Below are positions 34,784-55,380 of a DNA stretch of 64,000 nucleotides, piece after piece (position 1 is the stretch's first letter; each line of letters begins with the position of its first letter). The position numbers and the translations under genes were made by a program. The notes beneath the pieces are model-generated. The model was given only the letters and a program-made list of their open reading frames with translations. It had not been told where the DNA came from and searched no databases. Source of the stretch: Bradyrhizobium zhanjiangense. Its GTDB lineage: Bacteria > Pseudomonadota > Alphaproteobacteria > Rhizobiales > Xanthobacteraceae. Where the stretch lies: contig NZ_CP022221.1 in assembly GCF_004114935.1 (NCBI RefSeq), positions 6,035,001 to 6,099,000 of the forward strand, given 5' to 3'.

Positions 34784-35087
34784 GTTCCGACGAACCTCGG
34801 CTGCCAGGAATGCGAAAAGCAAGTTCCGATCAGCCCTTCATCGCACCATGCGCTCGATAGAATGTGCTGAAATCATCTCGGACTTCGCAAGATGCTCGGG
34901 TTTTTGGCCGCTTGATTGAACGAAGCTGCTCATGCCCGACCGAGTCCCAGTTCGGCGAAGGGCGGCGGGACCCCTCGAGGACCGCGCCGATTGCGTTCAA
35001 AACCAATTCGCCGCGTTCGATCCTTTCGGAAACATGCTGAAATTCCCCGATCTGAATCGATTGCTCCGGTAGATCGCTGGCGTTCAC
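34784..35087 (-). other. Gap of about 300 bases with a possible small reading frame
   Basis: A frame of 85 codons opens with GTG at 35087, overlapping the aldehyde dehydrogenase stop (GTGA), and runs to 34830 (MNASDLPEQSIQIGEFQHVS at its start). I do not recognise it, see no ribosome-binding site of note, and cannot tell a short gene from untranslated leader of the FAD oxidoreductase. Nothing else stands out. Confidence 0.25.
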
Positions 35088-36547
35088 CGGTAAAATCCGA
35101 GAACGGCCTTGGTCTCCAGATACTCCTCCATGCCCTCGCGGCCGTATTCGCGACCGTTGCCGGAACGCTTGTAGCCGCCAAAGGGAGCTTTGGGGTCCCA
35201 GTCAGGATAATTGAGATGAACTTGACCCGACTGGATCTGTCCGGCGAGGATCCGCATCGTCTCCATATCAGTGCCCTGCACATGGGCGCCGAGGCCGTAG
35301 ACGGTGTCGTTGGCGATCGCGATCGCCTCGTCGACCGACTCGTAGGGAATGATCGCCAGCACCGGGCCGAAGATCTCCTCCTGCGCGATCCGCATGTCGC
35401 GACGGACGTCCGAGAAGATGGTTGGACGCGCATAGAAGCCAATCTGAAGGTCGTCGGGCCGCCCCGGCCCGCCGATGACGAGCTTGGCGCCTTCGTTCAG
35501 ACCCACATTGATCATGGTCTGCACGCGCTCGAACTGCGGCCGGTTGGCAATCGGGCCATGAGTCGTGCTTTCCACAAGGGGATCGCCGACAACCAGTTTT
35601 GAAGCGGCCGCGGCCGCCAAGGTCTCGACCTCTTCCATCTGTGCGCGAGACACGAGCATGCGCGTCGGTGCGCTGCAGGATTGGCCGAGATTGCGGAAGG
35701 CGGCACCGACGCCGAGCGGAACGGCACGGCTGAGATCGGCGTCCGGCAAGATGATATTCGGCGACTTGCCGCCGAGCTCCTGGGCAACGCGCTTGACGGT
35801 GGGCGCTGCCGCTTGCGCGACGAGAACGCCGGCGCGCGTCGAGCCGGTGATCGAGATCATGTCCACCTGCGGATGCGACGCCAGACGAGTGCCGACGATC
35901 GGACCTGTTCCATTAACGAGGTTGAAGACGCCGGGCGGACAACCGGCATCGTCCATGACCTCAGCGAATAGCAAGGCGCTCAGCGGCGACAATTCGCTCG
36001 GCTTCAACACCACCGTGCAACCGGCCGCGAGCGCGGGGCCGACCTTGGCCGTGATCTGGTAGAGAGGCCAGTTCCAGGGGGTGATGAGCCCGCAGACACC
36101 GATCGCCTCTCGCATGATCGCCGTGCTGCCGCGCGCGGCGATGAACGGATAATTCGCGAGATTGTCGCGGGCGACACGGATATGTTCGGCGGCCAGCGGC
36201 ACCTGAGCGCGCCGGGCATAGGTGATGGCAGCTCCCATCTCGCACGTAAGCGCCTGCGCGAACAGCTCCAGCCGCTGGAGGAGCAAACCATGAACCCGGT
36301 CGAGCAGCGCCGCTCTGTCACCAGGCGGTGTCATGGACCAGCCCGGGAAGGCTCGTCTGGCAGCTGCAATGGCGCAGTCCACATCATCGTCATCGCCGAG
36401 CGTAACCTCGGCGATCGGCTGCTCCGTCGCCGGATTGACGACGGTTGCTGCTGCCGCGACTGATCCGATCGGCTTCCGCCATTCTCCGTCGATGTAGAAT
36501 TTTCCGAGGAAGCCGGCTTCCGTCAGGTGTCGAAGGGGCGAGGTCAT
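35084..36547 (-). CDS. Aldehyde dehydrogenase family protein
   Basis: A 487-residue NAD(P)-dependent aldehyde dehydrogenase. Catalytic Cys291 (in NLGQSCSAPTR) and general base Glu257 (in QELGGKSPN) are present, with the ITGSTRAG cofactor segment near 233. The ATG at 36547 has AAAGGAT upstream. It follows the D-threonine-aldolase-like gene by 22 bases. An obvious role is to oxidise the acetaldehyde or other aldehyde released by that aldolase or by the FAD amine oxidases; the exact aldehyde is not readable from sequence. Confidence 0.9.
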   Translation of the reverse strand: MTSPLRHLTEAGFLGKFYIDGEWRKPIGSVAAAATVVNPATEQPIAEVTLGDDDDVDCAIAAARRAFPGWSMTPPGDRAALLDRVHGLLLQRLELFAQALTCEMGAAITYARRAQVPLAAEHIRVARDNLANYPFIAARGSTAIMREAIGVCGLITPWNWPLYQITAKVGPALAAGCTVVLKPSELSPLSALLFAEVMDDAGCPPGVFNLVNGTGPIVGTRLASHPQVDMISITGSTRAGVLVAQAAAPTVKRVAQELGGKSPNIILPDADLSRAVPLGVGAAFRNLGQSCSAPTRMLVSRAQMEEVETLAAAAASKLVVGDPLVESTTHGPIANRPQFERVQTMINVGLNEGAKLVIGGPGRPDDLQIGFYARPTIFSDVRRDMRIAQEEIFGPVLAIIPYESVDEAIAIANDTVYGLGAHVQGTDMETMRILAGQIQSGQVHLNYPDWDPKAPFGGYKRSGNGREYGREGMEEYLETKAVLGFYR

Positions 36548-36569: not shown

Positions 36570-37763
36570 CTACCAGCCGCGCATCCGTGGCCATCGTGCT
36601 TCGATCGCGTCGCTGCCGGCGGAGACGACGTTGTACAGTTCGTGTTGCGACGCCGTTGCACAGGCGTGATTGGGCAAAATCCTGACCTTCGCGCCGATCG
36701 GAAGGTCGGGCAAAGCCTGACCCGAGCCGGGCCTGATGGCGAGGATGCCGTGCTCCTGGCTCGCATGCGAAACAATCAGGTCGGAATAGACCTTGCCGGC
36801 CACATCGCAGACCAGACCGTACCCCTGGTCGACCCGCTGCGCCGCGGTGCCGCGGTCGCGCGACAGCGCCATCCAGCCTGCATCGACCAAAATCCAACCC
36901 TTCTCGGGCTTCTCGCCGATCACGGTGGCGAGCACCGAGATGGCGATGTCGTCGGTGGTGCAGACGCCGATGCCGTGCATCACCAGATCGAAGAACATGT
37001 AGACGCCGGCCCGCATTTCCGTGACGCCGGTCAGGTCTTCGGCGAAATGCGCTGTCGGCGTCGAACCGACGCTGACGACGGGACACTCATGGCCGGCCGC
37101 GCGCAACGTCGTTGCGGCGGCGACGGCCACGGCGCGCTCGTTCTCCGCAGCGGCGACAAGGGCGGCGGGCGTGCTGAGGCCGTAGGATTCGCCGGCATGG
37201 GTGAGAATGCCGGCGATCTTGACGCCGGCCTCGGCGAGCGCCGCCGCGACGGCGATGAGCTTGGAATCGGTCGCCGTCAGCCCGCCGCGGTGACCATCGC
37301 AGTCGATCTCGACGAAGGCGGATGGTGTCACACCGGCTGCGCGACCGGCCGCGGCGAGCATGGCGGCCTGCTCAGGCGAATCCAGCAGCACCTTGATGTC
37401 GATGCCTGCTTTCCGCAGGCGCATTGCTCTGTCGGCGGTGTGAGGAGCAAGTCCTACGGCATAGGTCATGTCCCGGAAGCCGTGCTGCGCGAAATATTCC
37501 GCTTCCGCCAAGGTGGAGACGGTGATTGGTCCCGCCCCGGACCGATGGGCGCGTCGGGCAACGTCGATGGATTTTGCTGTCTTCAGATGGGGACGCAACA
37601 CGACGCCTTGCCGAGCCATACGAGAGGACAGGCGCGCGAGATTGCGATCCAGCCGGTCCTTGTCGAGCAGGAGAGCCGGTGTTGCCAGCGCGCCGATCGT
37701 TGCGGCCATTTCGCCCGGACCGGCGTCCGGGGCATCTGCCCTGTCCATCTCCACCCGCAGCAT
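36570..37763 (-). CDS. D-threonine aldolase / D-serine dehydratase-like PLP enzyme
   Basis: A 397-residue fold-type III PLP protein with an alanine-racemase-like barrel and a C-terminal D-serine-dehydratase-like domain. The Schiff-base lysine is in VLRPHLKTAKS (Lys61), and the divalent-metal pair is in LPNHACATAS near the C-terminus. Such enzymes cleave D-threonine or D-3-hydroxy amino acids to glycine and an aldehyde, or dehydrate D-serine. The ATG at 37763 follows AGGGGA by eight bases. Its position between an acetyltransferase and an aldehyde dehydrogenase favours the aldolase reaction. Confidence 0.84.
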   Translation of the reverse strand: MLRVEMDRADAPDAGPGEMAATIGALATPALLLDKDRLDRNLARLSSRMARQGVVLRPHLKTAKSIDVARRAHRSGAGPITVSTLAEAEYFAQHGFRDMTYAVGLAPHTADRAMRLRKAGIDIKVLLDSPEQAAMLAAAGRAAGVTPSAFVEIDCDGHRGGLTATDSKLIAVAAALAEAGVKIAGILTHAGESYGLSTPAALVAAAENERAVAVAAATTLRAAGHECPVVSVGSTPTAHFAEDLTGVTEMRAGVYMFFDLVMHGIGVCTTDDIAISVLATVIGEKPEKGWILVDAGWMALSRDRGTAAQRVDQGYGLVCDVAGKVYSDLIVSHASQEHGILAIRPGSGQALPDLPIGAKVRILPNHACATASQHELYNVVSAGSDAIEARWPRMRGW

Positions 37764-37774
37764 CCCGATGTCCC

Positions 37775-38644
37775 CTAGCCGAATGACTGGTTGGCGAGAC
37801 CGAATATGCGCGCCGGCCCAACCCATGGAGCCGGCGTTCCCAGCACCATTGTCGTGGCATCGCTGACGCGTTGAAGGCCGATGCTTTCGAGCCAGTCCCC
37901 GAGCTGCGAGGAGGCTGGAATATCGATCCGGACGAAGACAGGCCCGAGCCGCGCGATCGTGAATTCGATCAGCGCGCGCGCATCGGTCGGGCTTTCGGCC
38001 ACGACGGGACCGATGACATGCCCACGCCCGAAAAGGCGAGAGATGGCGTAGCCGCAAAGCAAGCCGTCACGCACCAGGACATAGCCGTCACCGCTGTCAA
38101 ACAGCCGATTCAGCAACTGCCGCCGCTCCAACCCTGTGGCCGCGCGGTCGAGCCGCGCGATCGCCTCGAACTCCGATGCGGCGATTGGTCTGAGGCCTGA
38201 TCGCGGCGTTCCTTGGCTTTGGCGGGGAATTCCGTGATGCTGGTGGATGATCCCGATCGGGACGAAGCCACGGCGGCGATACAGCGTCATGCCTTCCGGC
38301 GTCGAATTCAGCGCGATGGTCCGCGGGCGCGCGGACGTCAGCAACGCATCCATCAGCCGGGCCCCATAGCCACGGCCCTGAGCGGCCTTTGCAACGATGA
38401 TCATGCCGGCGGACGCATGAGTCTCGCCGTATGGCCACCACGCCGCGGTTCCGATCACCGTCCCGTCGCGCTGCAGAACAAAGCCATGGCCCAACTGCAG
38501 CGCGACATCCCAATCCTCGATGCGGTAGGGCCAGGACATCTCCTGCGAGAGCTTCAGGGCGCCTTCCAGATGCGCTCTGGCGAAAGGAAGCAGGGCCACG
38601 TCCTCATTGTCGCGCTGCCCGACTGGATAAGCTGCGGCTGTCAT
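37775..38644 (-). CDS. GNAT family N-acetyltransferase, two-domain
   Basis: A 289-residue acetyltransferase. The N-terminal GNAT domain has the acetyl-CoA loop AAQGRGYGARLMDALL near residue 88, and the C-terminal half (about 150-275) is the second domain seen in YitI-like proteins, with LFGRGHVIGPVVAES. The same FGRGHVIGP motif and layout recur in the protein at 58681-59559, so the two are paralogues. It probably N-acetylates or deacylates an amino compound in the pathway; substrate unknown. It starts after a 214-base gap and may have its own promoter. Confidence 0.85.
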   Translation of the reverse strand: MTAAAYPVGQRDNEDVALLPFARAHLEGALKLSQEMSWPYRIEDWDVALQLGHGFVLQRDGTVIGTAAWWPYGETHASAGMIIVAKAAQGRGYGARLMDALLTSARPRTIALNSTPEGMTLYRRRGFVPIGIIHQHHGIPRQSQGTPRSGLRPIAASEFEAIARLDRAATGLERRQLLNRLFDSGDGYVLVRDGLLCGYAISRLFGRGHVIGPVVAESPTDARALIEFTIARLGPVFVRIDIPASSQLGDWLESIGLQRVSDATTMVLGTPAPWVGPARIFGLANQSFG

Positions 38645-38858: not shown

Positions 38859-39887
38859 TCACGCCTTCCAGTCCAGCACGATCTTGCCGCAGTTGCCGGT
38901 GCGCATGATCTCAAATCCGGTCTTGAACTCTGTGACCGGCAGGCGGTGCGTTATAATTTTGCGGATGTCGAGACCGCTCTCGAGCATTGCGAGCATCTTG
39001 TGCCAGGTCTCAAACATCTCTCGACCGTAGATTCCCTTGACGGTGAGCATCTTGAAGACAAGCTTGGTCCAGTCGACAGTCGCGGGTCGAGCAGGGATAC
39101 CAAGCATGGCGATCTTGCCGCCCATCACCAGATTTTCAACCATTTGGTCGAACGCGGCCGGCGCACCGCTCATCTCCAGCCGGACATCGAACCCTTCCTT
39201 CATGCCGAGGCGCTGCGCTACAGACCGAAGATCTTCCTTGCTCACGTCGACGGGAACGACGTCAGCGACACCAGATGCCAATGCCAGACGATGCGGATTG
39301 ACGTCGGTAATCACGACGTGCCGCGCACCGACATGCCTGGCAACGGCGGCGCTCATGATGCCAATGGGACCTGCCCCGGTGATGAGCACATCCTCGCCGA
39401 CGAGGTCGAACGACAACGCGGTGTGGACGGCGTTGCCGAGCGGATCGAGGATGGCCCCGATCTCGTCATCGATCGCATCAGGGAGCGGCACGACATTGAA
39501 GGCGGGCAAACGCAGATATTCAGCAAAAGCTCCGGGAATATTGACGCCGATCCCCCTCGTTTCAGGATCCAGGTGAAACCGCCCTCCTCGCGCAGCGCGG
39601 CTGCTCATGCCGACAACATGGCCCTCACCCGAAACGCGCTGCCCAATCGCGAACTTCGTGACGTTCGCGCCCACTTCGGCGATCTCGCCTGCATATTCAT
39701 GGCCGACGACCATCGGGACAGGGACGGTCCGCTGCGCCCACTCATCCCAGGCGTAGATATGGATATCCGTGCCGCAGATCCCGGTTTTGTTGATCTTGAT
39801 GAGAACGTCATCCGGTCCGATCTGCGGAATCCCCCGTTCGTCGAGCCAGAGCCCGGGTTCGGCGGCTGCTTTGACAAGAGCTTTCAT
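38859..39887 (-). CDS. tdh: L-threonine 3-dehydrogenase, lacking the structural zinc site
   Basis: A 342-residue zinc-dependent medium-chain dehydrogenase that co-linearly matches E. coli Tdh and oxidises L-threonine to 2-amino-3-ketobutyrate. The catalytic site is intact (Cys38 in [10 protein letters not shown], His63-Glu64 in GHEYAGE), as are the NAD fold ([13 protein letters not shown]) and WDEW loop. The four cysteines that hold the structural zinc in E. coli (93, 96, 99, 107) are here Gly, Ser, Ala and Asp. The region is the same length, so this is substitution and not deletion. It follows kbl by 19 bases. Confidence 0.93.
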
Positions 39888-39906
39888 GAGAGCACCTTTG
39901 TAACCA

Positions 39907-41109
39907 TCAAATCACGCCAAGCGCTTTGCCGGCGTCGGCGAAAGCGTCGACGGCCTGTTCAACGTCCTTTTCGCTCAGGGCGGCGGACATCTGTGTCCTG
40001 ATCCGCGCCTTTCCTTTGGGGACGACGGGATAGAAGAACGCGGCGACGTAGATGCCGCGTTCATCCAGCGCGGCTGCCATATCCTGCGCCAGGCGCGCGT
40101 CGTGCAGCATGACCGGAATGATTGGCGTCTCTCCCGCGAGCAGTTCGAAGCCAGCCTTTTCCAAGCCCGACCGAAAGCGCCGTGTATGCGCAGCAAGAAG
40201 CTGCCGGCGGTCGTCGGCTGTTTCCGCGATCTGGATCGCCTTGATCGATCCCGCCGCCACTGCCGGGGCGAGGCTGTTGGAGAAGAGATATGGACGCGCT
40301 CGCTGTCGAAGCAGATCGACGAACGGTTGCGACGCCGCGACGAAGCCTCCCATCGCGCCGCCGAGGCTCTTACCGAGCGTCCCCGTGACAATCTCGACCT
40401 GCCTCCTTGTGCCCGTCAGCGTCGGCGTGCCGCGACCTGCTTCGCCGAGATGACCGGTGGCATGGCAATCATCGACCATAACGACAGCACCGTACCTCTC
40501 GGCCAAGGCGCAAATGGCGGGGAGCTTGGCCACGTATCCGTCCATCGAGAACACGCCGTCAGTGGCGATCAATTTGAACCGGGCTCCGTCCCTGTCCGCC
40601 TCCTTGAGCCGATCCTCGAGCTCGTTCATGTCGCCGTTGGCGAAGCGGTAGCGCTTCGCCTTGCAAAGACGCACTCCGTCGATAATTGAAGCGTGATTGA
40701 GAGAATCAGAAATGATGGCGTCGTCGGTCTCTAGAAGCGGTTCGAAGACCCCGCCATTGGCGTCGAAGCAGGCCGCGAACAGGATGGCGTCATCCTTGTC
40801 CAGATAGCGAGCGATCGTGCGCTCGAGTTCGCGGTGCAGGGTTTGCGTACCGCAGATGAAGCGCACGGATGCCATGCCAAACCCGAACTCATCCAGGCCT
40901 CGCTTTGCGGCTGCGATGACTTCGGGATGATCGGTAAGACCCAGATAGTTGTTCGCGCAAAGATTGACGAGTTCGCGCTCGGAGGACTTCGAAACGACGC
41001 GGATCCGGCCCGCTTGCGCGCCAGTGATCAGCCGCTCATGCTTGTAGAGGCCCTCCGCCTGGATCTGCGAAAGAAGCTCGCGAATTCGGCCTTCTAAGGT
41101 CGGCGCCAT
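39907..41109 (-). CDS. kbl: Glycine C-acetyltransferase (2-amino-3-ketobutyrate CoA ligase)
   Basis: A 400-residue alpha-oxoamine synthase. It cleaves 2-amino-3-ketobutyrate with CoA to glycine and acetyl-CoA, completing the Tdh route. The PLP lysine is in [16 protein letters not shown], and [11 protein letters not shown] and [16 protein letters not shown] are the usual cofactor contacts. The start ATG at 41109 matches the family N-terminus; the longer frame does not. Gene pair kbl-tdh is widespread, but here it is directly preceded by thrB and thrC. Confidence 0.95.
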
Positions 41110-41143
41110 CGTACCCCCATCCTCGCTGCCGCAAATTGGACGA

Positions 41144-42094
41144 TCATGATAATGCGAACTCTCCCCGGAGCATGAGCAAGATTCGCTCGAAGTGGCTGGG
41201 ATCATGTCGCTTAAGGAGCGCAGCCTGCCGAGGCAGGTGCACATCCCACAGGCGCGACAGCAAAAACCGGAATGCCGCAGCGCGCTGCATCGCAGGAAGC
41301 AGCTTGTGTTCGGAGGAAGTCAGCCGCCGGACGCTCTCATAAGCACCCAGGAAAGCGGCGGCTCGCTCGACATTGGGGCGGCGGGTGAGGCCGTCGACGC
41401 ACCAGTCATTGAGGCACACCGCTATATCGAACAGAAACGTGTCGCATCCGGCGAAATAGAAATCAATGACGCCGGACAGGCGCCCCCTCTCGAACAACAC
41501 GTTGTCGCGGAAGAGATCGGCGTGTATCGGCCCCCTGGGAAGTTGCCTGTAAGTCGAGGACAAAGCGAGCTCTTTCTGAAAGTTCAGTTCAGCCGAGAGT
41601 AACGAGCGTTGTCCGGCGGATACGTAGCGGCCGAGCACCGGCACGACCTCGTTCCACCATTGAAGCCCCCGCGGATTGTCTTGTTGTCGTGGATAATCGC
41701 TCCCGGCCAAGTGCAGGCGCGCCAGGCACTCCCCGACGGAACTGCAATGGGCGGCCGTAGGTTCTGCCTCGCTCGCACCAGGAAGCCTATTGACGACCAC
41801 CGCGGGCCGCTCCCTCAGCGAGAAAAGGATCACGCCATGCGCGTCAGCAACCGGATCCGGCATGGGCAAGCCGCGAGCCGCAAGATGCTTCATCAAGTGC
41901 AGGTAAAACGGCAATTGCCCGAATGTGAGACGCTCAAACAAGGTGAGCACATAGGCCTCGCCGTCCGTATCGACGAAGTAGTTCGTGTTCTCGATTCCTC
42001 CGGTAATCCCACGAAGTGAACGAGGCGTGGCGAGTCCCAGCGCTCGAAAGAACGCCGTCACCTCGTCGAATGACAATTCCGTAAATACGGCCAT
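41144..42094 (-). CDS. thrB: Homoserine kinase, APH type (ThrB)
   Basis: A 316-residue aminoglycoside-phosphotransferase-fold kinase of the alphaproteobacterial ThrB type, which makes O-phosphohomoserine from homoserine and ATP. It begins [20 protein letters not shown] and has [12 protein letters not shown], the catalytic loop [14 protein letters not shown] and the metal-binding IDFYFAGCD. It lies 26 bases after thrC and 34 before kbl. Relatives in this fold phosphorylate other amino alcohols, so homoserine as substrate rests partly on the neighbour threonine synthase. Confidence 0.9.
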
Positions 42095-42120
42095 GATTGT
42101 CCTCGATCCCAAGCAGCCGT

Positions 42121-43539
42121 TCAGCTGGTCACAATCTCGGCGATGTAGTCCTTGACTGCCCGTGCGTCCGGGGGGAGGACTCTGACGCGCCTCGGCAGTT
42201 CTTCCAGGCCCTTGTACCGTTCTGGAAGATCCGGCTCTCGCCCCAACGCTTCCTTGATCGTCGCCGCGAATTTGATTGGCAGTGCAGTTTCGAGCACGAT
42301 CATTGCCTCCTCGGCGGAGGCGTGTGTGCGCGCGACTGTGACACCATCCGCCGTGTGCGGGTCGATCACAGTGTGGTAACGCTCCCACGTATCGCGGATC
42401 GCCGCCACCCGATCAGCATGGCTGCTCTTGCCACTTCGAAAGCCAAACCTGGCGGCCGCCTCCGCGAATCGGGGATCTCCACTCAGGTCGAACCCACCCC
42501 GTTCCCTGAGCTGACCATCAAACAGCGCTTTCGTCCGACCGGCGTCGCGACCGACCAAGTCGAAGACGAACCGCTCGAGATTCGATGCCTTGGAAATGTC
42601 CATCGAGGGGCTCGACGTTTCGAGAGTGTCGGCCCGGCTCCGAGCGCGATACACGCCGGTGCGGAAAAACTCGTCCAGCACGTCGTTCTCGTTGGTCGCA
42701 ACGACCAGGCGGGATATCGGAAGCCCCATCATGCGCGCAACATGGCCGGCGCAGATGTTTCCGAAGTTTCCTGAAGGCACTGCAAAGCTTACGCCTGCCG
42801 GTCCCCGTTCGAACGCCTGCAGATAACCGGAGAAGTAATAGACGACCTGCGCAAGCAGCCTCGCCCAGTTGATCGAATTCACCGCACCGATCTTGTATTG
42901 CTGCTTGAACTCCAGATCATTCGCCACCCGCTTGACGATGTCCTGGCAATCGTCGAAGACGCCATCTATCGCGATGTTGTGGATGTTGTGGTCCTGGAGG
43001 CTGAACATCTGAGCTCGTTGAAAGGCGCTCATTCGTCCGCGGGGCGAGAGCATGAACACCCGCACCCCTTTCTTGCCGCGCATGGCGTATTCTGCGGCGC
43101 TTCCAGTATCGCCACTGGTCGCACCAAGAATATTCAAGTTCTCCTGCCGGCGCGTCAGCTCGTACTCGAGCAGATTGCCGAGCAACTGCATGGCCATGTC
43201 CTTGAACGCCAGCGTGGGACCATTCGACAGCTCCTGGAGATAAAGTCCCCTCTCCAGCTTTCGCAGCGGCGCGATGTCAGGCTTTCCGAATATCTCCGGC
43301 GTGTAGGTCTTTGCACAGATGGCTTTCAGGTCGGCGGAGGGAATATCGCCGACATAGAGTGACAGGATCTCGAAAGCCAGGTTGGCGTAGGACAGCGTAC
43401 GCCACGCATCCAGCGTGGCGTGGTCCACGCGAGGATAGGTCTCCGGGACGTACAGCCCGCCATCGGGGGCGAGGCCTTCAAGCAATGCCTCGCAGAATTG
43501 CTTGCGGCCTGAATGGCCGCGCGTGGACACGTACTGCAT
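42121..43539 (-). CDS. thrC: Threonine synthase
   Basis: A 472-residue PLP enzyme that converts O-phosphohomoserine to L-threonine. It starts MQYVSTRGHSGRKQFCEALL, carries the Schiff-base Lys in GPTLAFKDMAMQ and the phosphate loop GATSGDTGSAA. The ATG at 43539 is the family start, with AAAGAAG upstream; a TTG two codons earlier is also in frame. It stands 73 bases after a FAD amine oxidase and leads into thrB-kbl-tdh. Biosynthetic thrC is usually elsewhere, so this may be a second, catabolic copy. Confidence 0.94.
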   Translation of the reverse strand: MQYVSTRGHSGRKQFCEALLEGLAPDGGLYVPETYPRVDHATLDAWRTLSYANLAFEILSLYVGDIPSADLKAICAKTYTPEIFGKPDIAPLRKLERGLYLQELSNGPTLAFKDMAMQLLGNLLEYELTRRQENLNILGATSGDTGSAAEYAMRGKKGVRVFMLSPRGRMSAFQRAQMFSLQDHNIHNIAIDGVFDDCQDIVKRVANDLEFKQQYKIGAVNSINWARLLAQVVYYFSGYLQAFERGPAGVSFAVPSGNFGNICAGHVARMMGLPISRLVVATNENDVLDEFFRTGVYRARSRADTLETSSPSMDISKASNLERFVFDLVGRDAGRTKALFDGQLRERGGFDLSGDPRFAEAAARFGFRSGKSSHADRVAAIRDTWERYHTVIDPHTADGVTVARTHASAEEAMIVLETALPIKFAATIKEALGREPDLPERYKGLEELPRRVRVLPPDARAVKDYIAEIVTS

Positions 43540-43612
43540 CGTCAATCTTCTTTCGAGAGGCGGAAGTGCCTCCGGAATTCACGCCCTGGGTTGTAAGCTG
43601 CGCTGCCGGCTA

Positions 43613-44923
43613 TCAACGGCTGGCGCGCCACATCGCGATCCGGTCACGCATCCGGTAGCCATGAATGAAGGCAGGCATGAACCACGGATTGCCTCGATAG
43701 AACGGGATGAAGGCCGGAGGCCTGAAGTCGAACGCGGTGCGCGCCCGCTCTTCGTGTCCCATGAGCTTGTGCGCCGCATGCATACCGACCCATGGCGCCC
43801 AGACCACGCCCGACCCGCAGAAGCCGCTGGCATAGACGATACCTTCCTTCTCGAAGATGCGCGGAATCATGTCGCGGTTCATGGCCACATTGCCGAACCA
43901 ACTGTGTGAGAGGCGAACGGCATCCAGCTCAGGGAACAGATTCACCAGGCCATTGCGCAGAAGCAGCTTCGGGGCGACGGGGTCGCCGACCCGAGAGCTG
44001 TCGCGGCCGCCGAGCAAGATGCGTTTGCCATCAGGCGAGGGCCGATAATAGAAGCCGACCTCCCGGTTCTCGGTGATCATCATGCGTTTCGGCATCAGCC
44101 GCGCCATGACCTCGGGCGCAAGCTCCTCCGTCGCAATGATCCGGCTGCGAACCGGGACCAGCCGACGGCGCAGGAAGGGCGCGGCGCCATCGGTGTAACC
44201 GTTGGTACACACCAGCACCTGACGCGCCTGCACCGGACCGGCCGCGGTGAAGACGCGGAAGCCGGAGCCATCTCTGTCGATCGAGATCACGGGCGTCCGC
44301 GCGTGGACTGTCAATCCGGAAGCGAGCGCGACCCGCAGCAGTTCGGCGTGGAATTTCGCCGGGTGCAGTCCGCCGATGTCCATCCGAACCGAACCGCCGC
44401 GATAGATATCGGTGCCGATGTACTTGCGCTGCTCGGCATAGGAAACTGCGTACGCTTCGATCCCAAGTTTCTTTGCGAGCCGCTCCGCGCTCCGCGCCAT
44501 GGCTTCGTATTGTTCATAGCCGAAGGCGCCCTTGAACTGCCCCACCGGCTGGAAGTCGCAGGCGAGGCCTTCCGTCCTGATGAAATCGTACAGGAACTCG
44601 CGCGCGGCCTTGCCTTCCGCCTCGATCGCCAGCGCCTTCTCTTCTCCGAACCGGCGCGTGAGCGTCGCGTAGTCGGGCCGAATGGATCCGCTGGTGATAC
44701 CGCCGTTGCGCGTCGAAGCTCCTTCCCCAGGGTCCATAGCATCATAGGCCGCAACTGAGCGGCCCTCGCGCGCCAGCACCAGACCGGCCGAGAGCCCTGC
44801 ATAGCCCGCGCCCACGATCAACACGTCGAGCTTCTTGGCCATTGGCTGCTGAGGCGGCGGCTTAAGCGGCGCGGCTTCCCACCAATAGGGCGTGGCCTTC
44901 TCGGCAACTCTCGGCGCGTGCAT
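43613..44923 (-). CDS. FAD-dependent amine oxidoreductase (PuuB/OrdL-like)
   Basis: A 436-residue DAO-family flavoprotein. A short N-terminal lead with PYWWEAAPLKPP, typical of gamma-glutamylputrescine oxidase relatives, precedes LDVLIVGAGYAGLSAGLVLA, then STRNGGITSGSIRP. The C-terminal FAD contact is YASGFCGSGVVWAPWVG. Members oxidise N-substituted amines to aldehyde plus free amine. It lies between the dipeptide-type transporter and thrC, so the imported compound may be an N-substituted amino acid whose oxidation frees homoserine or a related amine; this is inference. Confidence 0.88.
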   Translation of the reverse strand: MHAPRVAEKATPYWWEAAPLKPPPQQPMAKKLDVLIVGAGYAGLSAGLVLAREGRSVAAYDAMDPGEGASTRNGGITSGSIRPDYATLTRRFGEEKALAIEAEGKAAREFLYDFIRTEGLACDFQPVGQFKGAFGYEQYEAMARSAERLAKKLGIEAYAVSYAEQRKYIGTDIYRGGSVRMDIGGLHPAKFHAELLRVALASGLTVHARTPVISIDRDGSGFRVFTAAGPVQARQVLVCTNGYTDGAAPFLRRRLVPVRSRIIATEELAPEVMARLMPKRMMITENREVGFYYRPSPDGKRILLGGRDSSRVGDPVAPKLLLRNGLVNLFPELDAVRLSHSWFGNVAMNRDMIPRIFEKEGIVYASGFCGSGVVWAPWVGMHAAHKLMGHEERARTAFDFRPPAFIPFYRGNPWFMPAFIHGYRMRDRIAMWRASR

Positions 44924-44976
44924 GGCTTTTCTTCTCGTATGGTTGCTGGGTTCAGCCGCGACTCGGTTGAAATCGT

Positions 44977-45855
44977 TCAGATGTGGTCGTTTCGAACGTC
45001 GAGGGCATCTCGCAGACCGTCACCGATGAAATTGAAGCTCGTTACCGCCATCGTAATCGCGGCACCGGGAATGATGGCGAGCCAGGGAGCGCTCGCCAGA
45101 TATTGCTGGGCGCCATTGAGCATGTTGCCCCAGCTGGGCAGCGGCGGCTGGATGCCGTAGCCGAGAAAGCTGATATAGGCCTCCAGAAGGATCGCGCGTG
45201 CGACGGCCAGACTTGCGGCGACGATGATTGGCCCCATGGCATTTGGCAGGATCTCGCGGAACATGATGTGCGCCCTGCTAAGCCCGACCATGCGCGCAGC
45301 CTGGACGAACTCGCGCTCGCGCAGCGAACGGACCTCGGCCTCGACAATTCGCGCCGTCTCCATCCAGCTCGTGACGGCAATGATCACCGTGATCATCACC
45401 GGGCTCGGGCGCAGCGTTGCGGCGAGCGCCAGCACGAGGAAGATCGAGGGATAGGATAGGAAGCCATCCACCATCCGCATCAGTGCGGCCCCGACCCAGC
45501 CCCCGCGATAGCCGGCCGTCACGCCGACGAGCGTACCGATCAACGTCGACAGCAACATCGCGGAGAATCCCACCGCCAGCGAGACGCGCCCGGCCATCAA
45601 CAGCCGCACCGCGAGGTCACGCCCCAAAGGATCCGTGCCGAAGTAATGGTGGCCTGTCAGGGGCGGAGCAAAGCGGGCGCGCAGATCGATATGGAGCGAG
45701 TCGTAGGGCAAGGCATAGGGACCGATGGCGCACGCCAGCACGAGCAGGCTGATCATCGCGATTCCCAGGAGTGCCAGATGGTGACGCATGAAGCGGTTAA
45801 CAGCGCGGCTGTTCCACCAGCGGGTCGGAGCTGCGTGCGCGACGATGGCGGTCAT
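44977..45855 (-). CDS. Dipeptide/oligopeptide-type ABC transporter permease (DppC-like)
   Basis: A 292-residue permease with the N-terminal OppC-type segment (RFMRHHLALLGIAMISLLVL), the TDPLGRDLAVRLLMAGRVSLAVG stretch typical of DppC and the EAA loop ARMVGLSRAHIMFREILPN. It pairs with the DppB-like protein. The family imports peptides, nickel, opines and many other solutes. Confidence 0.91.
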   Translation of the reverse strand: MTAIVAHAAPTRWWNSRAVNRFMRHHLALLGIAMISLLVLACAIGPYALPYDSLHIDLRARFAPPLTGHHYFGTDPLGRDLAVRLLMAGRVSLAVGFSAMLLSTLIGTLVGVTAGYRGGWVGAALMRMVDGFLSYPSIFLVLALAATLRPSPVMITVIIAVTSWMETARIVEAEVRSLREREFVQAARMVGLSRAHIMFREILPNAMGPIIVAASLAVARAILLEAYISFLGYGIQPPLPSWGNMLNGAQQYLASAPWLAIIPGAAITMAVTSFNFIGDGLRDALDVRNDHI

Positions 45856-45893
45856 ATCTACTCGCTCCTCTTATCTGGCGTGGGTCCGCAGGC

Positions 45894-46844
45894 TCAGGCC
45901 AGGCGAATGCGCGGATCGACGGTTGCGATCACGATGTCTGCGATCAGATTGCCCAACACGACCAGGATGGCCGAGAAGATCAACAGCCCCATCACGACCG
46001 GATAGTCGCTGTAGCCAAGGCTGTCGAGAAACAGCCGCCCCATGCCCGGCCAGGTGAACACGGTCTCCGTGACCAGCGCGCCGGTGAGAATGCTGGACAA
46101 TTGCATCCCTGCCAGCGTGATCATCGGCAACAGCGCATTGCCGATGACATGTTTCAGCAAGATGCGGCGCTCGCTCACGCCCTTGGCCCGCGCCGTCTTG
46201 ACGAAATCCTGACTCAACGCATCGAGCGTCGCCGTCCGCATGTAACGGCTCCAGATCGCGACATGAACGAGCGACAGCACCATGCTCGGCAAGATCAGGT
46301 GATGCAGATAGTCCAGGACGGAGCCGTCGCCGATCGTGTACATGTTGCCTGCGGGCACCCACCCCAGCTTCAGGGTGAAGATGTAGATGCCGATCAGGCC
46401 GAACCAGAACGTCGGAACGGACAGCGCCACCATGGCGCCGACAGTCGCGCAGTAGTCGAAGAGGGAATAGCGGTGGGTGGCACCGCGGATCCCGATCCAC
46501 GTGCCGGCCGCGATCGCCAATGCGGTGGATGTGCCCATCAGCAGCAGCGTCGCCAGCAGATGGCGACCGATCACTGCAAGCACGGAAGAGCCGTCCCGGA
46601 AAGAGTGTCCCCAGTCGCCCTGCATCAGTCGCCAGGCCCAATCGAGATACTGAATCCACAGTGGGCGATTGAGGCCCAACTGTGCAGCGAGCCGCTCGAC
46701 GTCCTTCTGGGTCATGCCGGGATCCAGCCCGAATTGGGCGAGGGGCCCGCCCGGCATGAGGTTGAGAACCGTGAAACCGATGATCGAGACGATCACCAGC
46801 AGCACGATGCTCTGGAAGAGACGATTCAGCAGGAAGGCGGACAT
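45894..46844 (-). CDS. Dipeptide/oligopeptide-type ABC transporter permease (DppB-like)
   Basis: A 316-residue permease that begins FLLNRLFQSIVLLVIVSIIGF as DppB proteins do, with the LDWAWRLMQGDWGHSF segment near residue 65 and EAA loop KTARAKGVSERRILLKHVIGN near 215. It sits 55 bases after the binding-protein gene and 38 before dppC-like. Confidence 0.91.
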   Translation of the reverse strand: MSAFLLNRLFQSIVLLVIVSIIGFTVLNLMPGGPLAQFGLDPGMTQKDVERLAAQLGLNRPLWIQYLDWAWRLMQGDWGHSFRDGSSVLAVIGRHLLATLLLMGTSTALAIAAGTWIGIRGATHRYSLFDYCATVGAMVALSVPTFWFGLIGIYIFTLKLGWVPAGNMYTIGDGSVLDYLHHLILPSMVLSLVHVAIWSRYMRTATLDALSQDFVKTARAKGVSERRILLKHVIGNALLPMITLAGMQLSSILTGALVTETVFTWPGMGRLFLDSLGYSDYPVVMGLLIFSAILVVLGNLIADIVIATVDPRIRLA

Positions 46845-46899
46845 TCGAGTCCTCCATTAGCGTGACAATGCCGTCCGCCGTGGTCCGTCCGGCAAGACA

Positions 46900-48567
46900 T
46901 CAGCTCGCCCAATACCAGGCAAGCGCGTTCCAGGACTCGGTGCGGGTATTGCCATTCGGCACGAATCCGTTGATCCCCTTCTTGAGACCTTCGACCGAGT
47001 TGCTCTGATACAGCGGCAGGAAAGGCAGGTCGCGGCGCACGAGTTCCTGCACGCGAGAGTAGATCGCGCGGCGCGCTTCGGGATCGAAGGTGCGTGCGCC
47101 TTTGTCAAGGAGTGCATCGACCTCCGGATTTGCATACTGCGCGTTGTTCGAGCCGCGGCCGCCCTTCGCTCCGATCGAGCGCGAGTGCAAGCGATTGGTG
47201 ACATCCGGATCGGCGCCAATTAGATACGAGCTGCCGACGATCACGGAATCGAACTGCGATTGCATCCAGAACTCGCCCCACATCACGGCGGCCGGCAGGT
47301 TCGATATCTTCATCTCGACGCCGACCTGCGCAAAGGTCTGCTGCAGGAACTGCTGCAGCTGCTCGCGAAGCGGATCGCCCGACGTGGTCGAATTGGAAAA
47401 GGACAGGCGAACGCCGTTCTTGGCACGAATGCCGTCCGCGCCCTTTGCCCAGCCGGCTTGATCGAGGATCTTGCCCGCGCGATTCAGGTCGAATTGGTGC
47501 AAGGTCAGGTTGGCGTTGAAGAAGAAGGACTGCCTCGGCATGAACGTCTCCGTCGGGGTCGGCACGCCGTAATAGAGCCCCTGAATGATCGCCTCCTTGT
47601 CGATCGCCGCGTAGAGTGCCTCGCGAACAGCAAGCTCCTTGAACTGCGGGCGCTCGAGGTTCAGGTAGAAGGATTCGAACGAGGTCCTCGGGAGGAGCGT
47701 CACAACCCGATTCGGCAGCGTCTTGGCTTCCACGTAATGATCGGGCGTGATGTAAGGCTGACCTACGAGATCAATGTCGCCGCTCTTGAACTGGGTGTAG
47801 AGGACCGTGAGATCGGGAATGTATTTGAAGACCAGCCTCTCGATGTGAGGGCCATCACCGAAGTATTCGGTGTTCGCAACGAGTTCGAGATGATCACCAG
47901 CAACCCTCTTGCCCCACTTGAAGGCGCCGGTGCCGACCGGGGCCTGGTTGAAGGCGGCGTTGTTCGGATTGGCCTCTTTCTCGAGGATGTGCTTGGGGAC
48001 GATGAAGGTTTCGGTCAGGAACGACAGATAGGGCGCAAAGGCCTCCTCCATTCGCCACGAGATCTCCGTCGGCGAGAGCACCGTAATGTCGCGCACGAGA
48101 GCATGGCCAGCCGTGCGCCAACTCCGGAAGTTGGGACTCGTGATCAGTTCCAGTGTGAATTTGACGTCCTCGGCGCTGAAAGGCTTGCCGTCGTGCCACC
48201 GGACGTCATCACGCAAACGAATGCGCCATTTGAGACCGTCTTCCGAAATACCGCCGTTCTTTTGGTCCGGCACTTCCACGGCAAGATTGGGCTGAATGAC
48301 GCCTTGAGGGTCGATGCGGAAGAGCGCGTCGAACACCGAGAAATGCACACCATCATCGACCTCAATGTGTGCCATCAGCGGATTGAAGACGGTCGGCTCT
48401 TGTCCAAGGCCGACGATCACGCGGCCAGTTGGCTTTGTCGGAGTGCGCGCGTGGGCCGGCTTGCCCAATAGATTGGGCGCGATCAGACCGGCAGCTCCAC
48501 CGATCGCCATCATGCGCAGAGCATCACGCCGCGAGTAGCTCGATGTCGTCGCAGAACCCTTGGTCAT
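46900..48567 (-). CDS. Dipeptide-type ABC transporter substrate-binding protein (DppA-like)
   Basis: A 555-residue SBP_bac_5 receptor. The N-terminus has a twin-arginine signal (SYSRRDALRMMAIGGAAGLI) with probable cleavage after AHA near residue 40, so it may be exported folded by Tat. Family features include LKWRIRLRDDVRWHDGKPFSAEDVKF and the C-terminal RRAIYSRVQELVRRDLPFLPLY. GGGAGGGG precedes the ATG, which overlaps the ATPase stop (ATGA). Ligand unknown; the operon suggests an amino-acid derivative or small peptide. Confidence 0.91.
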   Translation of the reverse strand: MTKGSATTSSYSRRDALRMMAIGGAAGLIAPNLLGKPAHARTPTKPTGRVIVGLGQEPTVFNPLMAHIEVDDGVHFSVFDALFRIDPQGVIQPNLAVEVPDQKNGGISEDGLKWRIRLRDDVRWHDGKPFSAEDVKFTLELITSPNFRSWRTAGHALVRDITVLSPTEISWRMEEAFAPYLSFLTETFIVPKHILEKEANPNNAAFNQAPVGTGAFKWGKRVAGDHLELVANTEYFGDGPHIERLVFKYIPDLTVLYTQFKSGDIDLVGQPYITPDHYVEAKTLPNRVVTLLPRTSFESFYLNLERPQFKELAVREALYAAIDKEAIIQGLYYGVPTPTETFMPRQSFFFNANLTLHQFDLNRAGKILDQAGWAKGADGIRAKNGVRLSFSNSTTSGDPLREQLQQFLQQTFAQVGVEMKISNLPAAVMWGEFWMQSQFDSVIVGSSYLIGADPDVTNRLHSRSIGAKGGRGSNNAQYANPEVDALLDKGARTFDPEARRAIYSRVQELVRRDLPFLPLYQSNSVEGLKKGINGFVPNGNTRTESWNALAWYWAS

Positions 48568-50393
48568 AACGTCTCCCCTCCCTTGTGCTGTCCGCCGTAG
48601 TCTGCATGTTCGGGCATGGTCCGGGCTTGCTCGCCCGGGATCGCTGCCACCAGCTCTCGCGTGTAGGTGGATTTCGGATCGAGGAATATCTGGGACGGCG
48701 GTCCGCGTTCCACGATTTGCCCTCGATGCATGACGGCGATTTCATCGCAGATTTGGCTTGCGACGCGCAGATCATGCGTGATGAAGATCATCGAGACGCC
48801 GGTCTCCCGCTGGATCTGATCAAGCAGCTTCAAGATCTGGGCCTGGATCGATACGTCGAGCGCTGAGACCGCTTCGTCGGCAATCAGCAATTTTGGTTTG
48901 AACATCAGCGCTCGAGCGATGCCGACGCGCTGGCGCTGCCCGCCGGAGAACTCGTGCGGATAGCGCTCAAAGGCGCCTGCATCCAGGCCGACATGGGACA
49001 GGAGCTCCCGCGCGCGCCCGCAAGCTTCGTCATAAGGCATGCCATGCGCGACCGGGCCGACTGTGAGAATTTGCCCGACCGTCGATCGCGGATTGAGCGA
49101 TGCGAAAGGATCCTGAAAGATCATCTGGATCTTCGGCCGTAGCGGCCGAAACTCGGCTTCGGAAAGCCCGGCGATGTCGCGGCCTTCGAACAGAATCGAG
49201 CCGCCGTCGCACTCCATGAGCTTGATCAGCAGCCGACCGAGCGACGACTTGCCCGAACCGCTTTCCCCGACGACGCCGAGCGTGCGACTCGACGTGAGGT
49301 CGAAGCTGACCCCATTGACCGCAGGCACGATGCGCTGCGTACGGAAAAGCGCGCTGCCGCTGCGATAAGTCTTTGCCAGGCATTCGACCTTCAGGATCGA
49401 CGCTCGCTCCCCGGCTTCCGAGGGAACGCGGTCCTTGCCGGTCAGGTGGGGCACGGCTGCGATCAGACGGCGCGTATAGAGATGACCGGGCGACTTCAGC
49501 ACCTGCGCGGCACTGCCCTGCTCCACGCAATGGCCCTTCTCCATCACCACAACGTGGTCGGCAATCTCCGCGACGACGCCGAAATCATGGGTGATGAACA
49601 TGACGCTCATTCCCTTGCGGCGTTGAATGTCGCGGATCAATTGCAGGATCTGCGCCTGGGTCGTCACGTCGAGTGCGGTGGTCGGCTCGTCCGCGATCAG
49701 GATCGCAGGTTCGAGGGCCAGAGCCATGGCGATCATCACCCGCTGCCGCTGCCCGCCCGAAAGCCGGAAGGGATATTGGTGATACATGAGCTGCGGATCA
49801 GGCAGACCCACTTCAATCAACAAGTCTATGGCCCGGCTGCGACGGGAGGCCGGCATGCCAACGTCGTGCGAGGCCATCACCTCCTCGATCTGCGCGCCCA
49901 CGGTCATCAGCGGATTGAGCGCTGAGAGAGGGTCTTGAAAGATCATCGAGACGACTCGGCCGCGCAGGCTGCGGAGCTTCTCAGGCGCAAGGCCCACGAT
50001 GTTCGTCCCATTCAGGTGGATCGCCCCCGAGGTGACCCTGATCACCTTCGGCAGAAGCCCCATGATCGCATTGGCGGTGACCGACTTGCCCGATCCAGAT
50101 TCCCCGATGATGCAGAGAATTTGTCCGCGCTTCAGATCAAAGGAGATGTTCTCGATGGCGTAGGCGCGCTCCATTCCTTGCGGCAGACTTACGCTCAGCT
50201 CCCGCACCGAGAGCGCGACATCGGCGGGGGCTGCAGCCGGCTTGCCAGAGGCCATCGGAACATCTTCCCTTTTTAGCTTCGTTCGGCCATCCTGCTGCGG
50301 GCCGCGCCTTCGGTTCTTTGCCTTGCCACGCTTCTTCGACAGGTCGATGATTTGACGCTCGACGTGCCATTCCTCTATTGGAGGCTGCGACAT
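48564..50393 (-). CDS. Fused dipeptide-type ABC ATPase (DppD-DppF in one chain)
   Basis: A 609-residue protein holding both ATPase domains of a Dpp/Opp system. The first has Walker A GESGSGKS at 97-104, signature [15 protein letters not shown] and Walker [12 protein letters not shown]. The second, in the C-terminal half, has [24 protein letters not shown] and [11 protein letters not shown]. The start at 50393 follows GGGGAGG by eight bases; an internal ATG at 50255 would drop a basic 46-residue leader that is not part of the ATPase fold. It is the first gene of the minus-strand block. Confidence 0.91.
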
Positions 50394-50901: not shown

Positions 50902-52227
50902 ATGAGCGCGCCGCTCCTGCATATCGAATCCAGTCCATCCTTTCCTCGTGAAGCGGACGTCGTCGTCATCGGCGGCGGCGTCGTAGGCGTGTTCACAAGC
51001 TACTATCTCGCGCGTCGCGGCCTCAAGGTTGCCTTGCTCGAGAAGGGCCGCGTCGCCGCCGAGCAGTCCAGCCGCAACTGGGGATGGTGCCGCCAACAGA
51101 ACCGCGACGCACGCGAGCTGCCGCTTGCGACCAAGAGCCTCGATCTCTGGGAACGAGTTGCCCAGGAAACGGGTGAAGACACGGGCTTTCGCCGCTGCGG
51201 CCTATTGTATTTGTCGAACGACGAGAATGAGCTGGCAGGCTGGGCCAAGTGGCGCGACTTCGCCAGGACCGTTGGCGTCACGACGCATATGTTGAGCTCG
51301 GAAGAGGCGAGCGGTCGGGGCAAGGCGACGGGTCGCAAGTGGAAGGGCGGCGTCTTCTCGCCGACAGACGGGACGGCGGATACTTCAAAGGCCGTCCCCA
51401 TCGCCGCGCGTGCGATCATGGCGGCGGGTGGCACGGTGCACCAGCTCTGCGCCGCGCGCGGCATCGAGCTCAGTGCCGGCCGGGTCAGCGGCGTGGTGAC
51501 CGAGGCGGGCACGATCCGGACGAAGACGGTCGTCATGGCAGGAGGCGCGTGGGCATCTTCGTTCTGCAACCAGCTGGGAATTCGCTTCCCGCAGGCATCC
51601 GTGCGCTCTTCGATTCTCGCCCTGGCCCCGGGCGCGGCCGGCCTGCCTGATGCCCTTTACGCAGGGCTCGTGTCGGCCACGCGACGCGGCAATGGCGGAT
51701 ACACGCTGGCCATCAGCGGGCGCGCGCGAGTCGATCCGACGCCGCAGCAGGTCAGGTTCGGCCGCGAATTCCTCCCCATGTTCGCCCGCCGCTGGCGAAG
51801 CCTCAGCCCCGGGGCCTTCGAGGGCATGCGGCAAGGCCACGAATCCCTGGCGAAATGGAGGCTCGACGAGGTGACGCCAATGGAGCTGAACCGAACGCTC
51901 AATCCCCGCCCCGACATGAGGCAGATTCGGCTGACGCATCGGCGCGCGTGCAAGCTGGTGCCCGAGCTGCGGCACCTCGCCATCTCAAACGTCTGGGCCG
52001 GCTACATCGACAGCACACCGGACGGCATTCCGGCAATCGGCGAAGTTGAATCCGTTCCAGGCTTCATCCTTGCGGCGGGGTTCAGTGGCCACGGTTTTGG
52101 AATTGGCCCGGGCGCGGGGCATGTGATCGCCGACATCATCACGGGCAGTCCGCCGATTGTCGACCCGCGCCCTTACAGGCCGGAGCGGCTGAAAATGAGC
52201 GCCTGGGGCAAGGTCAGTGAGTTCTAA
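50902..52227 (+). CDS. FAD-dependent oxidoreductase, glycine/D-amino-acid oxidase (DadA) type
   Basis: A 441-residue flavoprotein and close paralogue of the protein at 33461-34783: both have EQSSRNWGWCRQQNRD after the first strand, a FRRCGLxY segment near residue 96, LAISG(K/R)A in the middle and AAGxSGHGFGxGPG at the C-terminal FAD site. The dinucleotide fold is ADVVVIGGGVVGVFTSYYLA. Expected to oxidise an amine or imino acid with O2 or a quinone as acceptor. It is transcribed towards the Lrp gene, with an inverted repeat CCACCG/CGGTGG (52237-52250) just after its stop. Confidence 0.88.
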   Translation: MSAPLLHIESSPSFPREADVVVIGGGVVGVFTSYYLARRGLKVALLEKGRVAAEQSSRNWGWCRQQNRDARELPLATKSLDLWERVAQETGEDTGFRRCGLLYLSNDENELAGWAKWRDFARTVGVTTHMLSSEEASGRGKATGRKWKGGVFSPTDGTADTSKAVPIAARAIMAAGGTVHQLCAARGIELSAGRVSGVVTEAGTIRTKTVVMAGGAWASSFCNQLGIRFPQASVRSSILALAPGAAGLPDALYAGLVSATRRGNGGYTLAISGRARVDPTPQQVRFGREFLPMFARRWRSLSPGAFEGMRQGHESLAKWRLDEVTPMELNRTLNPRPDMRQIRLTHRRACKLVPELRHLAISNVWAGYIDSTPDGIPAIGEVESVPGFILAAGFSGHGFGIGPGAGHVIADIITGSPPIVDPRPYRPERLKMSAWGKVSEF

Positions 52228-52341
52228 AGGCAGTTTCCACCGTCCGGTGGGAAAAGATGCTGGTTGATGTTATGACAATGTATATGACGCCGAAGTCTCA
52301 AATCCTTGACGCCGTTGTCGCCCCCATCTCATGGCATTGCT

Positions 52342-52818
52342 ATGAAGCTTGATAAGATCGACATCAGGATTTTATGCGAACTGCAGAAGAACGGGCGGAT
52401 CTCCAACGTCGAGCTCGCAGAGCTGATCAATCTTTCTCCGAGCCCATGCCTGATGCGCGTGAAGAGGCTCCAGACGGAAGGCTTCATCACCGGCTATTCC
52501 GCTCAGATTGACGTTTCCAAGCTCGGCCAAACTCTGACTGTCTTCGCCGAAATCACCCTCAAGAATCATCGTCAGATCGATTTCGCGCGCTTTCTCACGA
52601 CGATCGAAAAGATCGATTCCGTGGTCGAGTGCCATCTCGTTTCGGGCGGGTACGACTATCTCGTCAAGTTCATCACGGCAGGGATCAGCGAATACCAGGC
52701 GATGATGGAGCGCCTGGTCGAGATGGATATCGGTATCGACAAATACTTCAGTTTCGTCGTGCTGAAGTCGCCGATCGTGAAATCTCATCTGCCTCTCGAA
52801 AGCATATTCAACGGCTAA
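52342..52818 (+). CDS. Lrp/AsnC family transcriptional regulator
   Basis: A 158-residue regulator with an N-terminal helix-turn-helix (LDKIDIRILCELQKNGRISN, then VELAELINLSPSPCLMRVKRL) and a C-terminal RAM ligand domain (VFAEITLKNH, VVECHLVSGGYDYLVKF). The ATG at 52342 is the family start; an in-frame TTG at 52306 adds 12 unrelated residues. Such proteins sense amino acids and often control adjacent transaminase or oxidase genes. It converges with the aminotransferase gene over a 16-base gap in which AAGGAC and GTCCTT form a short stem. Confidence 0.9.
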   Translation: MKLDKIDIRILCELQKNGRISNVELAELINLSPSPCLMRVKRLQTEGFITGYSAQIDVSKLGQTLTVFAEITLKNHRQIDFARFLTTIEKIDSVVECHLVSGGYDYLVKFITAGISEYQAMMERLVEMDIGIDKYFSFVVLKSPIVKSHLPLESIFNG

Positions 52819-52834
52819 AGGACAGGCTCGGTCC

Positions 52835-55246: not shown

Positions 55247-55321
55247 GCGTATTCTTTTCAGGTTCACTCGCGGCGTTTCAGCTCTTGGAGAGCTCCAATA
55301 GAAATCGGAGCACTGTGAAGG

Positions 55322-55350
55322 AAAAGGGGGCGGTTCGACCGCCCCCTTTT
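55322..55350. terminator. Bidirectional Rho-independent terminator
   Basis: AAAAGGGGGCGGT and ACCGCCCCCTTTT form a perfect 13-base stem around TCG, followed by CTTGTTT on the plus strand. It lies between the convergent HAD (stop 55246) and semialdehyde dehydrogenase (stop 55381) genes and, being symmetrical with T runs on both sides, can serve both. Confidence 0.9.
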
Positions 55351-55380
55351 CTTGTTTCAGATATTGATCTGATCGGCCGC

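Follow-up and report, generated by a model that had tools for sequence, protein, structure and literature searches.

A stretch of 64,000 nucleotides of the Bradyrhizobium zhanjiangense genome was analyzed (contig NZ_CP022221.1), here called the window; it corresponds to positions 6035001–6099000 of a single-contig 9.34-Mb genome scored 100% complete, and positions below are counted within the window. It harbors a run of nine genes encoding an importer, an amine oxidase and a cassette of thrC, thrB, kbl and tdh. Apparently, the run forms one arm of a catabolic island of roughly 26 kb (33461–59559), with the cassette as an optional outlet for the homoserine that the island's breakdown reactions release; we hold this explanation with about as much doubt as confidence. 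The chemistry encoded in the island points to an azetidine-type plant compound.

The nine genes are codirectional on the minus strand (38859–50393), with spacings of 19–73 bases and one 4-base overlap, as described in an earlier sequence-only reading of this DNA. Gene content and gene order were also given correctly there; the frame was too narrow, the run continuing through four more genes past tdh. The genes are:

38859–39887, minus strand: tdh, L-threonine 3-dehydrogenase (NF003808, 542 bits vs. a cut-off of 380), cassette
39907–41109, minus strand: kbl, glycine C-acetyltransferase (NF005394, 602 bits vs. a cut-off of 460), cassette
41144–42094, minus strand: thrB, APH-type homoserine kinase (NF003558, 404 bits vs. 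a cut-off of 271), cassette
42121–43539, minus strand: thrC, threonine synthase (TIGR00260, 242 bits vs. a cut-off of 167), close to betaproteobacterial ThrC, cassette
43613–44923, minus strand: FADox1, FAD amine oxidase of the DAO family
44977–45855, minus strand: OppC/NikC-type permease
45894–46844, minus strand: OppB/DppB-type permease, named from annotated homologues
46900–48567, minus strand: family-5 solute-binding protein with a Tat-type start
48564–50255, minus strand: fused two-domain Opp/Dpp ATPase, the open reading frame (ORF) reaching 50393

Family scans of the run found ThrB, ThrC, Tdh and Kbl to be encoded side by side. The ATPase gene is a fused two-domain gene as proposed, with its start placed by relatives at 50255 rather than 50393. 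FADox1 is an FAD oxidase, as had been said, of the DAO family; the label “PuuB-like” proved loose, and the protein scored far under the cut-offs of the models for L-pipecolate oxidase AmaA and an aminophosphonate-associated oxidoreductase. The binding protein remained under the cut-offs of the NikA model (173 bits) and the Opp4A model (172 bits); its first five PDB matches were generic or peptide-named, and chains named NikA appeared from the sixth row. A 328-residue open frame (45871–46857) overlaps the permease gene 45894–46844 and matches no family; it is a frame trap for ORF callers.

The island comprises twelve further genes beyond the nine, namely four same-strand genes past tdh (38644–33461) and a further block beyond the ATPase gene (50902–59559):

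37775–38644, minus strand: GNATa, two-domain GNAT acetyltransferase, continuing the run
36570–37712, minus strand: relative of D-threo-3-hydroxyaspartate dehydratase (E 1e-121), its relatives being annotated as alanine racemase
35084–36547, minus strand: aldehyde dehydrogenase (ALDH)
33461–34783, minus strand: FADox3, DAO-family oxidase, whose family is the commonest immediate neighbor of the HAD hydrolase in other loci
50902–52227, plus strand: FADox2, DAO-family oxidase, divergent
52342–52818, plus strand: Lrp/AsnC regulator
52835–54211, minus strand: class III aminotransferase, NF004625 subfamily
54557–55246, plus strand: HAD type II hydrolase (HAD below), closest solved relative L-azetidine-2-carboxylate hydrolase
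55381–56838, minus strand: succinate-semialdehyde dehydrogenase (SSADH) family
57051–57404, minus strand: EutQ-like cupin
57418–58341, minus strand: GhrA-type 2-hydroxyacid dehydrogenase
58681–59559, plus strand: GNATb, second two-domain GNAT

Relatives of this island were found in rhizobial, rhodobacterial, burkholderial and Klebsiella loci. HAD was detected in 28 of the 398 genomes of a phylum-wide sample, our own genome included (E 1e-60). There were 34 places outside our own genome, with G281:C1 and the second G694 place left out of the locus counts; 29 HAD loci from 27 other genomes were compared. The stretches covered at most 20 or 40 kb and some were ended by contig ends, the counts therefore being lower bounds. 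A DAO-family oxidase was present in 27 of these loci, a family-5 binding protein in 25, an ALDH or SSADH in 25, a class III aminotransferase in 18, and a tartrate dehydrogenase-family protein (TTDH) or GhrA in 21. The tartrate/D-malate-family dehydrogenase occurred in 11 of the 29; the copy of our own genome lies elsewhere and is 82% like that of locus L134. None of the 29 contained thrC, thrB, kbl or tdh. As controls, 46 loci of at least 20 kb were examined, which were thrC-centered, mostly from Burkholderiales and not a random draw; oxidase, binding protein, aminotransferase, TTDH and GhrA were found in 0/46 and ALDH/SSADH in 2/46.

Furthermore, plasmids were searched, yielding 350 records with HAD (E 1e-20) and 485 with the oxidase (E 1e-40). 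HAD was present in all 15 plasmid regions L134–L148, and thrC, thrB and kbl in none of them; a 29% alcohol-dehydrogenase match in L142 was not counted as tdh. Around thrC, a large part of the island gene set is also annotated on plasmids of Bradyrhizobium sp. 195, Mesorhizobium sp. 131-2-1 and Aminobacter aminovorans and, more distantly related, in Burkholderia cenocepacia. The sequence-only reading had taken importer and oxidase as pointing to a homoserine compound as the substrate. This was not supported in that form, because both also occur in islands without the four thr genes; they therefore probably serve another parent compound, of which homoserine is at most one fragment.

Within Bradyrhizobium, the cassette was followed in 265 genomes. 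Window-type thrC was found in 15 of them (E 1e-150) and HAD in 66 (E 1e-80), 41 of the latter at ≥86% identity. All 15 thrC-bearing genomes belonged to these 41 with a window-type HAD, and none to the 224 others (Fisher p 5.6e-14, kinship ignored). The surrounding DNA was read for 17 of the 41 genomes. All four cassette genes were intact in 6/15 (the window, G798, G823, G829, G877 and G952). G933 (= L099, Bradyrhizobium sp. 195) contains all four, with tdh split between two frames (L099:18676–19700), so that the cassette ends in a broken gene. Two genomes retained thrC and thrB (G982 and G887, the latter also with a 46-residue kbl remnant), G936 retained thrC together with a kbl remnant and a thrB interrupted by an in-frame stop, and five had thrC alone (G993, G857, G767, G765 and G751), two of these with thrB remnants. 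Two Bradyrhizobium islands without thrC (G112 and G376) showed 180–188 bases between FADox1 and GNATa, the usual site of the cassette.

Outside the genus, the Mesorhizobium loci L022 and L100 gave full-length matches to all four cassette genes, Aminobacter has thrC and thrB with remnants of kbl and tdh, and in Burkholderia cenocepacia thrC and thrB stand behind an importer of another kind. The gene order is more than chance, as thrC-thrB-kbl-tdh recurs in Mesorhizobium and in other Bradyrhizobium, but the cassette is partial or eroded in 9 of the 15 Bradyrhizobium genomes. The simplest reading is that the cassette was complete in the past and has been decaying from its distal end, thrC being retained longest.

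A search of our own genome revealed a second thrC at 9.06 Mb, 39% identical to the window copy, and a second thrB at 1.28 Mb between ispH and rnhA, 42% identical. The sequence-only reading would have been contradicted had the window thrB and thrC been the sole copies, which they are not; separate housekeeping thrB and thrC are present. No other close tdh or kbl was found in this genome; further matches to Kbl and Tdh were short or partial and did not exceed 33% and 41% identity, respectively, with 33% and 32% for the best-scoring ones. For homoserine dehydrogenase, one match over the family cut-off was obtained at 5.42 Mb, together with two weak partial matches; the newly described oxidative type may escape that model. 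None was found among the island proteins scanned, a set that excludes the permease 45894–46844.

These results bear on the idea of a stand-alone operon for the utilization of homoserine or a homoserine derivative, with importer and oxidase dedicated to that compound. The contiguous same-strand genes and the duplicated thrB and thrC would suit it. In 3/3 Comamonadaceae loci examined, homoserine dehydrogenase is the gene before thrC; the island, unlike these, has none beside thrC, which suggests that homoserine itself may be the direct input, and the sole over-cut-off homoserine dehydrogenase of the genome lies far away. However, an importer and an oxidase of this kind are also found in loci without the cassette, including the two Bradyrhizobium islands with the short oxidase–GNAT junction, and the window island has its twelve genes beyond the nine. 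As both are retained where the cassette is missing, we set the stand-alone operon aside as quite unlikely.

Selection on the cassette genes was estimated by median pairwise dN/dS, using pairs with dS over 0.05. The median was 0.129 for thrC (15 sequences, no stops), 0.206 for thrB, 0.113 for kbl and 0.052 for tdh (6 sequences), as compared to 0.076 for HAD, 0.096 for FADox1 and 0.246 for GNATa. In the thrC-only genomes, thrC gave 0.113 over 10 pairs with a maximum of 0.280. The cassette genes are under purifying selection.

Additionally, the window ThrC was compared to 11 other ThrCs, namely nine from a homologue scan, the second copy of our own genome and one of S. meliloti pSymA; it keeps 96 of the 97 positions invariant among them. 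The homologue scan covered at least 80 loci; among the matches listed four were rhizobial, the rest belonging to Burkholderiales or to assemblies with names of higher rank only. In the ThrC tree, island and betaproteobacterial ThrC stood together, far from the second ThrC of our own genome, with a weakly supported split between them (67/33). The conserved positions, and the fact that ThrB and ThrC are textbook biosynthetic enzymes, would also suit a cassette acting as backup supply of threonine and glycine and not in catabolism. Yet the genome has further copies of thrB and thrC, the reactions of Tdh and Kbl lead downhill from threonine, and window-type thrC is confined to genomes with window-type HAD. 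A backup supply is thus very improbable.

The best PDB match of HAD was 3smv, named L-azetidine-2-carboxylate hydrolase (E 1e-20), followed among other enzymes by an epoxysuccinate hydrolase and a haloacid dehalogenase (9e-11). HAD is 31.6% identical to 3smv, Asp12 is kept and Lys149 aligns with Lys152 of 3smv, both residues having been mutated according to PDB titles. The Pseudomonas L-azetidine-2-carboxylate hydrolase (3smv, 8ywo) thus shares the HAD-II fold and the Asp and Lys residues and is the closest solved sequence. The Pseudomonas azetidine system was reported to be periplasmic with a transporter of the γ-aminobutyrate (GABA) type, whereas the window island encodes an Opp importer and amine oxidases. 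According to PMC8016842 (this and the other papers given by PMC number are represented here by excerpts), azetidine-2-carboxylate is broken down via 2-hydroxy-4-aminobutyrate, a GABA-like product. The PDB title of 8hp7, which we take to be the same hydrolase with a tag, names (2R)-4-amino-2-hydroxybutanoic acid. Homoserine as the direct product of the azetidine hydrolase was dropped, since both sources give 4-amino-2-hydroxybutanoate.

HAD might instead be a true haloacid dehalogenase or act on another ring, the island serving another N-substituted amino acid of the opine-like kind and the cassette still draining homoserine. Fold scores were tied between azetidine hydrolase and L-2-haloacid dehalogenases, many close relatives of HAD carry the source name 2-haloacid dehalogenase, and three-protein sets resembling opine oxidases occur in L144, L146 and G700. 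The best sequence match, however, is the azetidine hydrolase by 32 bits, and aminotransferase, SSADH and a D-malate-type dehydrogenase would fit the product 4-amino-2-hydroxybutanoate. We consider this alternative unlikely. Such opine oxidase-like sets, of a 2Fe-2S protein and two flavoproteins, were located beside single-chain oxidases at L144:5849–8828 and L146:17636–20453 and in L199.

For the island as an azetidine-type catabolic locus, we infer the following course. The Opp-type importer would bring in an N-substituted amino-acid compound, and the DAO-family oxidases would cleave its C–N bonds to give aldehydes and amino acids, the aldehydes being oxidized by aldehyde dehydrogenases. HAD may open a ring like that of azetidine-2-carboxylate, yielding (R)-4-amino-2-hydroxybutanoate. 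This product would be converted to C4 acids by the class III aminotransferase, the SSADH-family enzyme and a dehydrogenase of the D-hydroxyacid or D-malate type. Homoserine would be converted to O-phosphohomoserine by ThrB, to threonine by ThrC, to 2-amino-3-ketobutyrate by Tdh, and to glycine and acetyl-CoA by Kbl. The four genes most likely serve as this homoserine–threonine–glycine arm, already proposed from the letters of the DNA, though as an optional, decaying appendix of the island and not as an operon standing alone.

The same route was reported in evolved E. coli (PMC9792984, excerpts), where growth on homoserine as the only nitrogen source proceeded via threonine and required both tdh and the glycine cleavage system; homoserine toxicity was lifted by rapid conversion to threonine, for which thrB was needed and tdh was not. 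The four-step route is therefore feasible and partly less novel. Strain 4E of that study, as excerpted, and the cassette use the same reactions, ThrB and ThrC leading to threonine and Tdh and Kbl to glycine; 4E up-regulated scattered housekeeping genes, whereas the window has dedicated second copies of thrB and thrC in one run within a catabolic island. Since homoserine is toxic, its conversion no further than threonine would be of benefit in itself, a possible reason why thrC, together with a housekeeping ThrB, outlived kbl and tdh. Homoserine use by R. leguminosarum is linked to pRL8, and published work points to a homoserine dehydrogenase near the cluster (PMC10228743, PMC3333776). This is likewise a plant-associated rhizobium, its gene cluster residing on an accessory replicon; compared through the descriptions in these excerpts, a homoserine dehydrogenase as in R. 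leguminosarum was not matched among the window island proteins scanned. Literature judged by its titles announced no natural thrB-thrC-kbl-tdh operon.

Two further compounds were considered. Eut/Doe clusters for ectoine and hydroxyectoine comprise an Lrp/AsnC regulator, a class III aminotransferase and an SSADH-type enzyme, all of which they have in common with the window island. Ectoine utilization was rejected, as no ectoine hydrolase (EutD/DoeA) was found among the window island proteins scanned; a related cyclodeaminase of L100 reached 159 bits vs. the EutC cut-off of 472. Breakdown of canavanine frees homoserine; it was rejected as well, no such lyase being found among the island proteins scanned.

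Other gene sets recur in or near the related islands. A second HAD, an APH-fold kinase and a class III aminotransferase-like protein (the latter two matching halves of PRK06148) form a separate optional set in ten compared loci, for example at L137:12015–15690, L136:7246–10542 and L101:23042–26281 and in L150, L164 and L179; the HAD stands apart from the other two in L099 and G751. We guess that this set combines a kinase with phospho-lyase chemistry. PdxA, a four-carbon acid sugar kinase, a cupin and a LysR protein recur near the island (L100:20128–24362, L134:9771–12892, L099), with ltaE in L100 and L099; this block hints at a hydroxythreonine-like fragment. Elsewhere in the window, 8630–19197 encodes a three-subunit set of the molybdenum hydroxylase type, an amidohydrolase, an NCS1 transporter and a dihydropyrimidinase, perhaps a nucleobase or hydantoin catabolic block. 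An 845-residue protein, the C-terminal part of which is a PhnT2/PotA-like ATPase, adjoins a PhnS-like binding protein (24148–27759). Rfam gave no matches in the window at gathering scores, and no tRNA was found in it.

Nicotianamine and mugineic acids consist of azetidine-2-carboxylate and aminobutyrate units, and avenic acid ends in homoserine. In the boldest reading, the island could tentatively be a bacterial route for consuming such plant metal chelators; we rate this as possible though rather unlikely. The oxidases would cut the chain, HAD, aminotransferase and SSADH would handle the azetidine unit, and ALDH with the hydroxyaspartate-dehydratase relative the hydroxylated middle unit. The triple of second HAD, kinase and aminotransferase of some relatives would handle hydroxyazetidine, and thrB-thrC-tdh-kbl the homoserine unit of avenic-type chelators.

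The hydroxyls of phytosiderophores vary on the western and middle units (PMC7821100), and soil microbes are reported to degrade phytosiderophores readily (PMC7946895, PMC7786132). In its excerpts, PMC7786132 infers their consumption by P. fluorescens SBW25 and cites an earlier report of P. putida strains not degrading them. Its candidate genes in SBW25 were chosen from the iron response and, judged by their annotations in these excerpts, are unlike the window island. Among the papers listed in our literature search, none was found to assign catabolic genes to phytosiderophores or nicotianamine. In 6 of 19 plasmid loci (L137, L144–L148), a TonB receptor, CDF exporter, ArsR/SmtB, copper/nickel genes, an iron ABC importer or a P-type ATPase are annotated beside the island. 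Such a neighborhood was considered as proof of a chelator substrate and rejected; homologues of TonB, CDF and iron-ABC probes were found in 0/29 genome loci, and the observation is weak and not used as support.

If the substrate is of the chelator type, the island would provide concrete, widespread and deletable genes for the breakdown of phytosiderophores and nicotianamine. Even without the chelator reading, a catabolic locus has recruited second copies of thrB and thrC along with tdh and kbl, and the steps of their decay are visible within one genus. The cassette would also be a counterpart, found in nature, of the homoserine route that laboratory selection brought about in E. coli.

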